In this document: in pieces, positions 43,465 to 48,010 of the stretch
How the letters are laid out: each line of letters opens with the position of its first letter
Position numbering within the stretch: position 1 is the first letter of the stretch
NCBI RefSeq assembly: GCF_000622405.1
Contig: NZ_JASF01000005.1
Span: forward strand, 1,178,001 to 1,242,000
DNA length: 64,000 nt
Direction of reading: 5' to 3'
Source: Sulfitobacter donghicola DSW-25 = KCTC 12864 = JCM 14565
GTDB taxonomy: Bacteria > Pseudomonadota > Alphaproteobacteria > Rhodobacterales > Rhodobacteraceae
The notes under the pieces: model-generated
Told to the model about the DNA's origin: nothing
Seen by the model: the letters and a program-made list of their open reading frames with translations, nothing else
Databases searched by the model: none
Position numbers and translations under genes: made by a program

Positions 43465-45286
<1,822 letters not shown>

Positions 45287-45320
45287 AGGTCTTGGAAATC
45301 GAACTAAAGGCCCGCGTGCA

Positions 45321-45354
45321 AGAGAAAAGGGAGAGACGCCCGAACATCTCTCCC
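45321..45354 (-). terminator. Rho-independent terminator downstream of the Cys-rich secreted protein
   Basis: An 8-bp perfect stem GGGAGAGA/TCTCTCCC with a 10-nt loop is followed on the minus strand by TTTTCTCTTG. It is the second of two tandem hairpins in this 3' region. Confidence 0.8.
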
Positions 45355-45362
45355 CTCCCTAC

Positions 45363-45389
45363 CCCGTGCGGCGGGACATGTCGCACGGG
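45363..45389 (-). repeat. Perfect 8-bp hairpin preceding the terminator
   Basis: CCCGTGCG (45363-45370) pairs with CGCACGGG (45382-45389) around an 11-nt loop. It lies 43 bp past the stop codon at 45433 and only 8 bp from the terminator stem. Confidence 0.6.
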
Positions 45390-45432
45390 TGTCGGCGCAA
45401 AGGTGGTGATACTCAGCGCGCCGAATTCGGTA

Positions 45433-45948
45433 TTAGCGGCGCGCTAGGGTGTAACCGTTCTGGCGCAGGCATCGCGCACCAAAGCCTGAACGACGGCCAT
45501 CATGGGTGCGAACGCGCTGAGCGCAATTTTGCGGCAGGCGATTCACAAATTTATAATTCTGCTCGAGACACCGGCGCCCAAACATCCGCACCTTCCCATT
45601 GCGGGTGTTGAAACTGCGCAAACATTGCTGAGGCAGGTTTTTACGGTTCACACGCTGAGGCAGCGGACGCGGCGCCGCTCTTTGGCGGGGTTGGGTCTTG
45701 GTGCCGTGGCGGTGCACGCGCGGGGCTGGTTTACTCCGCACCTGTTGCTGATGCGTTTGGCGGCGTTCGTGTTTATCTTTGTTGTTCTCATGAATAAGGG
45801 CCCCAACAACCGCGAGCCCAAAAATAGTTGCCACTGTACGGGCAGTACGGTGGTCATCGGCAACGGCTGGTGTCGCGGTCGCTGCTGTTATAGCCATCAC
45901 GGCAGCTGTGAAAGTGCCTGCAATACGAGTAGGAAGCTGAAAGCGCAT
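45433..45948 (-). CDS. Secreted basic protein with a duplicated Cys motif, unknown function
   Basis: A 171-residue protein with a signal peptide (cleavage after TPAVA, about residue 30), a Gln/Arg/Pro-rich basic linker (about 55-103) and two C-terminal repeats of about 33 residues. The repeats align as LPQxC, then NG or DG, then FGxRCLxQN(x)Y: residues 106-138 and 139-171. Each has two cysteines 18 apart (C109/C127 and C142/C160), so two disulfides are likely. I do not recognise the family. AAGGA lies 8 nt before the ATG at 45948. Two tandem hairpins end the transcript. It is divergent from the secreted small protein at 46122. Confidence 0.75.
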   Translation of the reverse strand: MRFQLPTRIAGTFTAAVMAITAATATPAVADDHRTARTVATIFGLAVVGALIHENNKDKHERRQTHQQQVRSKPAPRVHRHGTKTQPRQRAAPRPLPQRVNRKNLPQQCLRSFNTRNGKVRMFGRRCLEQNYKFVNRLPQNCAQRVRTHDGRRSGFGARCLRQNGYTLARR

Positions 45949-46121
45949 CTGATTGATCCTTATACTTTGGGTGCAGCACGTTCGTTTTGTGCAGCGGGAT
46001 GAGATCAATCTGGCTGCGACCCTGTCAGACAGGCAATAACAGCCATTTGTTATCAGATAGCAGCCCGTATAACTGGCTATGGATATTGAATATCAATCCA
46101 GAAAAACGCATCCTGCCTCTT

Positions 46122-46412
46122 ATGAAACACATGCGCTTTCCCCTTTTTGTTACCGTCATGGTCATCCTGTCTGGACCTGCCCATGCTGCGGACTGCTATG
46201 CCGATTATAAGGCTAAACAGGACAACCCGTTGCGGCTACATTATGGCGTGGCCAAAGTTTCAGGCCAATGCACCAAGGCCGCTGCCAAAGCAGAGCTAAA
46301 GAACCGTCTAGGTGCCAATGGCTGGAAGCTGCTGAATGTTGTTTCAGTTTTCGGGCCAGAAGGGCTTGCGCAAAGGAAAAAGAGTGCCGGATCAAACTTC
46401 CTCCGCTTCTGA
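46122..46412 (+). CDS. Small secreted protein, unknown function
   Basis: A 96-residue product with a signal peptide (FPLFVTVMVILSGPAHA, cleavage near residue 22) and a mature part of about 74 residues with two cysteines, starting ADCYADYKAKQ and ending VFGPEGLAQRKKSAGSNFLRF (in parts). The conserved-looking core is LRLHYGVAKV and NGWKLLNVVSVFGPEG. I do not recognise a named domain. The 3' end overlaps the membrane winged-helix gene by 29 bp in another frame, so translation is likely coupled and the two may work together. An alternative ATG is at 46131; the ribosome site is weak. Confidence 0.7.
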   Translation: MKHMRFPLFVTVMVILSGPAHAADCYADYKAKQDNPLRLHYGVAKVSGQCTKAAAKAELKNRLGANGWKLLNVVSVFGPEGLAQRKKSAGSNFLRF

Positions 46413-47088
46413 TATACGCCGCAGCGGCGGCCGCTTTGTCATTTTGGGTATCAGCGCAATCGTCGGCCTTTTGGTGATTGGCGCAGTTGTGATGTTTCTG
46501 GCATTACCTGATGCCAATGCGTTTAACGCACGCGTTGAACATATCTTTATCCAGAACGACAATCTGACCTCCCCTGCCGAAATCAAGCTACTGGAGATCC
46601 TAGCGCAGTCAGGCACTGCTTTTTCTGACACGCTAATGAATTACCGCATTCTAATCGGCGTCCTGCTGATTTTTGCCGCCGCCATGTTGATTGCTGCGAT
46701 TATTTTTCTGACCCTGTTGATCACGTTCAACCGTCGCATGGCCCAGATTGAGAGGACAGGCATTCAGGTATCGTCTCTTTTGATCAGCCGCGAAGAAAAC
46801 AAAGTGTACCTGAACAATCTTGGTTTCAAGCTGACCGATGCGGCGATGGAAACGCTGGCCGTTTTGGCAGAGGCCCGCATGGATGATGATGTAATGTCTG
46901 GGTCCGAAATAGAGGCCGTCATTTCGGGGCGTTCTGCAGCGGATTGCGACGAAGCTGCTGGCGCGACACGGATCAAAAGGCTGCGCGATACTTTGGGCAA
47001 CCAAATGGTCAGCGAGCTGCTGGTAAAGAACATCGCGCGGCGCGGTTATATGCTGGCGATTGATAAGGACGTTATCAAGGTTCTTTAA
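46384..47088 (+). CDS. Membrane protein with C-terminal OmpR-type winged-helix-like domain
   Basis: A 234-residue protein with two membrane helices (about 18-41 and 88-115) enclosing a periplasmic loop of about 45 residues. The C-terminal 120 residues are cytoplasmic. Residues about 135-226 follow the Trans_reg_C pattern: a strand pair ENKVYLNNLGFKLTD, helices, then TRIKRLRDTLG and the closing hairpin ARRGYMLAI, like the recognition helix and GYRL wing of OmpR. ToxR/CadC regulators have the winged helix at the N-terminus, so this order is reversed. The GTG at 46384 has AAAGGA 6 nt upstream. DNA binding is inferred, not proven. Confidence 0.7.
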   Translation: MPDQTSSASDIRRSGGRFVILGISAIVGLLVIGAVVMFLALPDANAFNARVEHIFIQNDNLTSPAEIKLLEILAQSGTAFSDTLMNYRILIGVLLIFAAAMLIAAIIFLTLLITFNRRMAQIERTGIQVSSLLISREENKVYLNNLGFKLTDAAMETLAVLAEARMDDDVMSGSEIEAVISGRSAADCDEAAGATRIKRLRDTLGNQMVSELLVKNIARRGYMLAIDKDVIKVL

Positions 47089-47110
47089 GTTTAGCTTTGC
47101 GCATGGCGCG

Positions 47111-47128
47111 ACACTCGCGGGTGTTTTT
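47111..47128 (+). terminator. Possible terminator after the membrane winged-helix gene
   Basis: ACACT/GGTGT (one G-U pair) closes a CGCG loop and is followed by TTTT. The stem is only 5 bp. It lies 22 bp past the stop codon. Confidence 0.45.
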
Positions 47129-47233
47129 GCCGCCCGTGTTTAGGGGCGACTGATCGCATGGGAACGGCCCCTCTGGTAAATGCCGACAATCCGGCGCTAC
47201 TGTGCGGCGAACCTACGGAAAAGGAAGCCACCG

Positions 47234-48010
47234 ATGCCAGCCCCAGTGAACATGTTCAAGAAAGCCCTAGCGCAGGGTAACATTCAATTTGGCTGCTGGG
47301 CTGCTTTGGGCAATAGCTTTACCACCGAACTGATGGGCCAAGCGGGTTTTGACTGGCTCGTCCTTGACGGAGAACACGGGCCAAATGATCTGCTCTCTAT
47401 TCTATCTCAGCTACAGGTGATCGAGGGCACCGACACGCATGCCGTTGTCCGCGTTCCCGTTGGCGAAACCTATATGTTGAAACAGGTGTTGGATGCGGGT
47501 GCGCAAACGGTATTGGTGCCAATGGTCGAAAGCGCGGATCAAGCAAGGCAGTTGGTACGTGATGTCACCTACCCTCCGCACGGTGATCGGGGGGTGGGCT
47601 ATGCCCTAACCCGAGCCTCAAAATTCAGCACAATCGAGGATTACGGGAAAACCGCAGATGCAGAGATATGCCTGCTGGTGCAGGTGGAAAACCTAAAGGG
47701 ATTGGCAGCACTGGATGAAATCCTGACAGTTGATGGCGTTGACGGCGTTTTCATCGGCCCTGCAGATTTGGCGGCAGACATGGGGCATATTGGCAATGCC
47801 GATCACCCAGACGTACAAGCCGCCATTATGGAGGCACTGGCACGGATCAGCTCTGCCGGAAAAGCACCCGGCATTCTATCGACCCAAGATGGCATGACCA
47901 ATGACGCCATCGCAGCAGGTGCATTATTTGTCGCTGTAGGCGCAGATGTTTTGTTGCTGGGAAATGCTGCACGCGCCCTAGCAAGCAAATGGCAAGCTAC
48001 CAAAACATGA
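47234..48010 (+). CDS. HpcH/HpaI-family class II aldolase
   Basis: A 258-residue metal-dependent aldolase of the 4-hydroxy-2-oxoheptanedioate aldolase family: FGCWAALGNSFTTELMGQAGFDWLVLDGEHGPND, then VLVPMVESADQA, QVENLKGLAALDEIL and the metal site FIGPADLAADMG (quoted in parts). These enzymes cleave 2-oxo-4-hydroxy acids to pyruvate and an aldehyde. The natural substrate is unknown. AAGGA lies 8 nt before the ATG at 47234. The MFS gene overlaps its stop codon, and a paired aldolase and transporter suggest uptake and breakdown of a hydroxy or sugar acid. Confidence 0.9.
   Translation: MPAPVNMFKKALAQGNIQFGCWAALGNSFTTELMGQAGFDWLVLDGEHGPNDLLSILSQLQVIEGTDTHAVVRVPVGETYMLKQVLDAGAQTVLVPMVESADQARQLVRDVTYPPHGDRGVGYALTRASKFSTIEDYGKTADAEICLLVQVENLKGLAALDEILTVDGVDGVFIGPADLAADMGHIGNADHPDVQAAIMEALARISSAGKAPGILSTQDGMTNDAIAAGALFVAVGADVLLLGNAARALASKWQATKT

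Follow-up and report, generated by a model that had tools for sequence, protein, structure and literature searches.

A conserved gene pair of Rhodobacteraceae coding for a secreted protein and a putative membrane-anchored winged-helix regulator with reversed domain order

A pair of overlapping genes in the genome of Sulfitobacter donghicola DSW-25 raises the question of whether a winged-helix domain, fixed to the membrane at the opposite end from that of the known ToxR-type regulators, controls its own operon together with a secreted partner. The pair is located in a window of 64,000 nt (assembly GCF_000622405.1, NZ_JASF01000005.1:1,178,001-1,242,000, forward strand), and all coordinates below are positions within this window, position 1 being its first letter. 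The first gene (gene 1; 46122..46412) starts with the ATG at 46122 and codes for a secreted protein of 96 amino acids, whose signal peptide was assigned by eye to approximately residues 1-22. The second one (gene 2; 46384..47088) starts with a GTG inside gene 1 and codes for a membrane protein of 234 amino acids with a C-terminal winged helix. A preliminary description had reported these two proteins, including the two membrane helices of the second and the overlap of 29 nt, and this is confirmed by the sequence. It had further suggested a membrane regulator with inverted domain order and a secreted partner which reports the periplasmic state in the manner of ToxS. The first part is well supported by the predicted fold, the charge bias and the gene neighbourhood, to which an operator at the regulator's own promoter adds, whereas the second is made no more than plausible by the strict co-occurrence of both genes and their retention in two genomes where they are separated. 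The pair is rather likely to encode a transcription factor that is anchored in the membrane, regulates itself, has its domains in reversed order, acts with a secreted co-component and controls envelope genes, the DNA binding of gene 2 and the sensing by gene 1 being putative.

The pair and its promoter are encoded on the plus strand. Two transmembrane helices of gene 2 were located by hydropathy at residues 18-36 (46435..46491) and 89-107 (46648..46704). Both agree with the structure model, in which the second lies within a long helix of residues 64-124. They enclose a predicted periplasmic loop (residues 41-88; 46504..46647), which is net negative and has a mean column identity of 82%. Residues 129-230 (46768..47073) were assigned to an OmpR/PhoB-type winged helix by Pfam, the structure model and fold matches at 15-24% identity, in line with the fold proposed in the preliminary description. 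NCBIfam gave weak and partial matches to winged-helix regulators only. The C-terminus is predicted to lie in the cytoplasm, as had been assumed, since the charge bias agrees with this placement and does not indicate a periplasmic one. A receiver domain was not found in the Pfam scan of gene 2, residues 1-128 being occupied by the membrane helices and the loop in the model, which rules out a response regulator. Among the listed database relatives, annotated as 'hypothetical' or with the generic name 'winged helix-turn-helix protein', one (P0083) is called 'response regulator receiver domain protein', which we regard as a misannotation.

The third (recognition) helix, placed at residues 190-204 (46951..46995) by model and alignment, is the most conserved stretch among those tested, with a mean column identity of 95.6%, and its residues R196, K198, R199 and R201 are invariant in 50 aligned members. 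This conservation, together with the operator at gene 2's own promoter described below, argues against the idea that the winged helix has ceased to bind DNA and serves the membrane protein as a protein-binding adaptor. Such a role would fit a domain which has diverged well from typical OmpR domains, as seen from the low identity of the fold matches, and whose Pfam score in the window's protein is below the curated cut-off; it is nevertheless considered very improbable.

At E <= 0.001, the protein search returned at least 8000 relatives of gene 2, and 1852 of the 1853 scored candidates for gene 1 reached the same threshold. The sample of the order comprised 149 Rhodobacterales genomes, all of one family by database labels. 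This family is inferred to be the Rhodobacteraceae from the named matches, which include Sulfitobacter, Roseobacter, Ruegeria, Shimia and Roseovarius, among others. Gene 2 is present in 137 of these genomes and gene 1 in 136, whereas 12 have neither. Gene 1 was scored in 136 of the 137 genomes bearing gene 2, and inspection of the locus of the last one (G087) revealed a diverged gene 1 of 78 amino acids at the expected place. The two genes are conserved neighbours, as a survey of their synteny was expected to show: the distance between them is at most 60 nt in 133 of 136 genomes and larger in G133 (3825 bp), G072 (1019 bp) and G057 (123 bp), so that G133 and G072 keep both genes although these are at least 1 kb apart. 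Among 289 genomes sampled from the class, 235 of which reach 90% completeness with no more than 5% contamination, the 4 of Rhodobacteraceae were the only ones with a match to gene 2 at E <= 0.001 in an alignment search.

Of 48 loci that contain gene 1 and gene 2, counting that of the window, 38 keep the overlap of 29 nt if gene 2 is taken to begin at the start closest to query residue 1; this rules out a chance overlap of reading frames. A likely ribosome-binding site of gene 2, AAAGGA (46372..46377), lies within gene 1 directly before the GTG at 46384, and a Shine-Dalgarno-like sequence precedes the gene 2 start in 42 of 49 loci. A length of 250 amino acids in some of the database relatives of gene 2 would fit an ATG start at 46336 deep in gene 1 (46336-47088).

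On its other side, gene 1 faces a divergently transcribed gene for a further secreted protein (gene 3; 45433..45948, minus strand), identified by protein search. Gene 3 was found in 123 of the 149 genomes, that is in 123 of the 137 bearing the pair and in none of the 12 lacking it. A divergent arrangement with gene 1, at no more than 2 kb, was seen in 121 of 122 compared genomes; the sole match in G008 sits on another contig, and in G021, outside the 122, gene 3 is divergent by coordinates. The 14 misses among the pair-bearing genomes may include undetected copies, since gene 3 diverges fast, and in one of them (G087) a copy was recognised by eye. As a side observation, its C-terminus is repeat-like and contains a cysteine.

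The region between gene 3 and gene 1 contains a conserved putative operator, which is a new finding of this analysis. An alignment of the 200 bp upstream of gene 1 from 121 distinct loci revealed the arrangement GACAGGCAATAAC-N8-GTTATCNGATAAC, followed by GTTATTGAATATC over the -35 box, with the half-site SAATAWC arranged in palindromes. In the window, site 1 (GACAGGCAATAAC) is located at 46028..46040, site 2 (palindrome GTTATCNGATAAC, here GTTATCAGATAGC) at 46049..46061 and site 3 (palindrome GTTATTGAATATC, here GATATTGAATATC) at 46082..46094. Site 3 contains a conserved -35-like element, TTGAAT (46086..46091), and in 101 of 117 loci it starts 39 or 40 bp upstream of the ATG. A -10-like element, CANNNT, here CATCCT (46109..46114), follows after a spacer of 17 nt and lies 8-13 nt before the ATG; its C and A are at 100% in 54 and in 47 sequences, respectively. 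Judged by conservation, the two elements look like a -35/-10 pair with the start point on or beside the ATG. The transcript of genes 1 and 2 is therefore probably leaderless, and such a start would explain the fixed distance between site 3 and the ATG. Site 3 overlies the -35 box, sites 1 and 2 lie further upstream, and the operator may act by activation, repression or both.

The spacing of the sites is restricted. When the two patterns are searched for freely, TGTTATC lies at an offset of 17 from AGGCAATAAC in 110 of 120 loci. With the spacing of sites 1 and 2 fixed, 108 of the 121 loci passed all three filters (13 were dropped), and the offset between sites 2 and 3 was 23 (8 loci), 33 (23), 34 (61), 43 (2), 44 (12), 54 (1) or 110 (1). 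In 107 of the 108 loci, not all independent because some are related, these offsets step by about one helical turn with none in between. A freer count gave an offset of 1 in eleven loci, in which both patterns land on one place. The phasing would reflect a requirement of proteins that touch each other along one face of the DNA, and no other simple cause is known to us.

The pattern SAATAWC-N6..10-GYTATYNRATAWC occurs exactly in 56 of the 149 genomes, and its reversed control in none. With a spacer of 8 bp and at most one mismatch, 121 sites were found in 100 of the 149 genomes (control: 1), of which 89 lie before gene 1, 3 before gene 2 and 29 elsewhere. The three before gene 2 precede it directly in G133 and G072, whereas in G087 the diverged gene 1 intervenes. 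The 12 genomes without the pair contain no site at this threshold, which is trivial for the module's own promoter, and for the others 29 sites are too few to tell. In 285 genomes of other families the sites are at about control level, with 16 genomes having a match and 13 control matches (counted from the table). When two mismatches were allowed, 135 of the 149 genomes had a match; this search is noisier, and only single places among the matches listed were used from it.

Where the module is scattered, its separated pieces mostly carry sites. Genes 1 and 2 each have their own in G133, and in G072 sites precede gene 2 (one mismatch) as well as gene 1 and gene 3 (two mismatches each). Gene 3 lies at least 0.7 kb from gene 1 in seven genomes, and the far-off gene has a site with at most two mismatches just upstream in G007, G009, G029, G069, G072 and G079 (starts estimated from partial matches). 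In the two genera represented by G133 and G072 the site of gene 2 also faces a divergent secreted gene (L053:6046-6717 and L054:5158-5940), and the two proteins appear alike by eye.

For the sites elsewhere in the genomes, 26 of the 29 hits, corresponding to 25 places as two overlap, were checked for the start of a gene for a secreted protein or lipoprotein within 200 bp; one hit in G074 and those at gene 3 in G069 and G079 were left out. Such genes were called by our own simple signal-peptide rule, and shifted positions in the same loci served as null. A start was found near 16 of the 25 places, compared with 200 of 950 (21%) in the null (p 4e-6, kinship ignored). These targets include a lipoprotein beside rpsL-rpsG-fusA-like genes in four genomes that belong to the same genus (L189-L192), three of the four being called by the lipoprotein rule and one by the signal-peptide rule; two of these lipoproteins show weak, sub-threshold similarity to TbpB-like barrels. 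Others are of the gene 3 kind, namely gene 3 of G007 and a gene 3 match with a peptidoglycan-binding domain in G099, and the targets in L175 and L182 resemble gene 3 by eye. Further targets are a BA14K protein, a DUF5333 protein and one with a weak glycine-zipper match.

Gene 2 is taken as the binder because no other DNA-binding protein was recognised in the module and the sites go with the module. Several observations weigh against the proposed regulator, its binding and its range of targets. The best unit of the operator is a tight palindrome of 13 bp, which would suit an ordinary dimeric helix-turn-helix protein and is unusual for an OmpR-type domain; domains of this family often use direct repeats (PMC9275681). 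The structure model of gene 2 is of middling confidence (pLDDT 71.4, pTM 0.44). One exact match of the operator lies outside the family (G194), and at two mismatches 4 of the 12 pair-less genomes have matches, the control being frequent there as well. In G119, where gene 3 lies apart, no site was found among the listed matches with at most two mismatches. By our rule, no signal-peptide gene lies within 200 bp of 9 of the 25 off-locus places. At least two of these nine sit inside long reading frames (L180 and L188), one is near the start of an aldehyde-dehydrogenase-like gene (L187), and a dodecin-like gene is close to one member of a pair of related places (L176), both genes being named by eye. 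A further two related places face a regulator-like gene, also by eye, and in L185 the gene opposite to it codes for a lipoprotein that the rule missed. In the window's own genome the module's site is the only one with at most one mismatch; two mismatches give 5 matches against 1 in the control, and three give 23 against 10, an approximately twofold excess, so that a wider regulon was not shown for this genome.

The main rival is another regulator, which would bind the operator and have gene 2 as its target, gene 2 itself possibly binding elsewhere. The palindrome keeps this explanation in the field, but the separated pieces of the module mostly retain their sites, the 12 genomes without the module have none with at most one mismatch (trivially so for the module's own promoter), and outside the family the sites are at about control level. 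CenR, an OmpR/PhoB response regulator serving the envelope of Rhodobacter sphaeroides, shares the C-terminal winged helix with gene 2, but its motif is TGA-N8-TGA instead of a palindrome, and gene 2 differs from it by the missing receiver domain and the membrane anchor (PMC9275681). Altogether, a foreign binder seems unlikely.

With gene 2 as the binder, the following mechanism can be proposed. Gene 2 would be a transmembrane regulator whose OmpR/PhoB-type winged helix hangs in the cytoplasm below two predicted membrane helices and binds the composite operator located between genes 3 and 1, several molecules acting together, probably on one face of the DNA. In this way it would tune its own operon, from which genes 1 and 2 would be translated as one mRNA, and the divergent gene 3, and in some relatives further genes for secreted proteins and lipoproteins. 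Its core function would be the module itself, with additional targets varying between lineages, because the window's genome has a single site with at most one mismatch and the other targets differ among lineages. In most sampled members of the family the regulator probably controls itself and other secreted proteins by a readable DNA switch, and its likely role is the upkeep of the cell envelope in Rhodobacteraceae.

In gene 1, C25 and C50 are invariant in 46 aligned members, and the mean column identity is 54% (n=46), compared with 73% for gene 2 (n=50). The Pfam scan assigned no family, and the sequence search found no relative in the PDB, its two matches being weak (E 0.62 and 0.84). A PepSY protein is not claimed, as the best E-value of PepSY_2 is 0.0027 and only 5 of the 46 members match, nor is a DUF4177 protein (E 0.066, one of the 46 members). 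A lipocalin-like protein is not claimed either, the Pfam matches being weak and scattered and the PDB ones those just given.

Conjecturally, gene 1 would be a periplasmic partner which touches the conserved loop of gene 2, determines how active or stable gene 2 is and carries the signal. The strongest hint in this direction is that the two genes persist together even where they are not neighbours. On the other hand, gene 2 could be the regulator described and gene 1 just another envelope protein under its control, without sensing, the overlap merely securing co-expression. Gene 3 and most off-locus targets are secreted as well and share the operator, and the lower conservation of gene 1 points the same way. 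Against it, gene 1 accompanies gene 2 in all 137 genomes if the one recovered by locus reading is counted, the two splits of at least 1 kb included, whereas 14 of them lack gene 3 or have an undetected copy; moreover, the overlap is conserved for exactly genes 1 and 2. A purely co-regulated gene 1 is a possibility to be taken seriously, if a doubtful one. The full proposal of a co-component envelope sensor goes further. The secreted protein and the two-helix protein with its C-terminal winged helix would form one unit reading the periplasm, and as a phased multimer at the leaderless promoter and beside the divergent gene it would set its own level and that of lineage-specific surface and periplasmic proteins. 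That it represents a new, undescribed core regulator of nearly all Rhodobacteraceae is offered tentatively, as a prospect somewhat short of probable.

In ToxR/ToxS, ToxR has one membrane helix and the gene of its partner comes second. Regulators of the ToxR/CadC type consist of an N-terminal winged helix, one membrane helix and a C-terminal periplasmic domain. The predicted model of gene 2 has the OmpR-type fold in common with them, but its winged helix follows two helices. The pair is laid out like ToxR/ToxS or VtrA/VtrC (PMC9214523), with an overlapping or adjacent gene for a secreted protein, gene 1 being the putative partner. It is not a member of either, because the winged helix is at the opposite end and a folded C-terminal periplasmic domain is missing. 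Besides the reversed domain order, it differs from these systems in having two membrane helices instead of one and the partner gene in first instead of second place. A short helical loop stands in place of a folded periplasmic domain, and it is well conserved rather than fast-evolving (PMC9214523). In such co-component systems the partner has a lipocalin-like barrel and forms a heterodimer with the regulator; the Pfam and PDB searches of gene 1 gave neither a family nor a relative.

Transmembrane transcription regulators combine a predicted membrane region and a DNA-binding domain in one protein (PMC10269533), and gene 2 belongs to them by sequence. Among them it is characterized by two helices ahead of a C-terminal OmpR-type winged helix, and Table 1 of characterized members contains no organism of the Rhodobacteraceae (PMC10269533). 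The reversed order itself has precedent, with other DNA-binding domains. In Rsp, a membrane receptor is joined to a C-terminal PilR DNA-binding domain (PMC10269533). Two alphaproteobacterial proteins, HigX from Caulobacter (PMC13384398) and CoxC from Afipia (PMC11347149), carry a LytTR domain at the C-terminus and a membrane part at the N-terminus; HigX has an inverted repeat as its motif and targets envelope-gene promoters, and the operator of CoxC overlaps the -35 box. Gene 2 has a winged helix instead of LytTR, the membrane parts of the other two are a four-helix bundle and an MHYT domain, respectively, and the excerpts of both papers do not mention an overlapping gene for a secreted partner. 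In the open-licence literature of PubMed Central we recognised neither a paper on this pair nor a case of its exact build. TM1040_0586/0587, two adjacent Rhodobacterales-specific hypothetical genes (PMC2241609), may be this pair and are an unconfirmed candidate; the literature search found no further paper with these tags.

Rhodobacteraceae are common in the sea and well studied, yet the pair, found in most sampled genomes of the family, is annotated as hypothetical, generically or, in one match, as a response regulator. Two questions become testable with a tethered winged helix and a readable operator: how a membrane-fixed DNA-binding domain reaches its promoter, and by what means these bacteria perceive the condition of their envelope. 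The operator allows a direct bench assay, and the genomes with a split module can show, as natural experiments, which of its parts form a unit.

Some minor observations concern the loci of the pair. In six of them (L014, L015, L018, L023, L027 and L028) gene 1 is shorter by 16-20 residues and does not overlap gene 2, and in all six the usual AQSGTAF of the gene 2 loop is replaced by ALSGTAF. A link between the two changes was not used, as five of the six loci come from one genus (g25) and may represent one event; it is further weakened by L040, which has the leucine of ALSGTAF and a gene 1 that is not shortened. L125, a contig that its label assigns to an unverified Flavobacteriia bin, has gene 2 at 73% identity and is probably a mislabelled contig of the Rhodobacteraceae. 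No structured RNA was found near the pair by Rfam up to E 0.1 (45300-47400).

Gene 3 lies between gene 1 and two further divergent genes, which were named by eye as RNase HII (rnhB; 44672-45286, minus strand) and a CcrM-type DNA methyltransferase (43465-44643, minus strand). Control of these two genes by the module was considered but is not proposed. Counted over 100 loci, some of which end before reaching the neighbouring genes, rnhB and ccrM are kept upstream in 93 and 91, respectively, whereas the genes downstream of the pair are poorly kept, in at most 23 of the 100.
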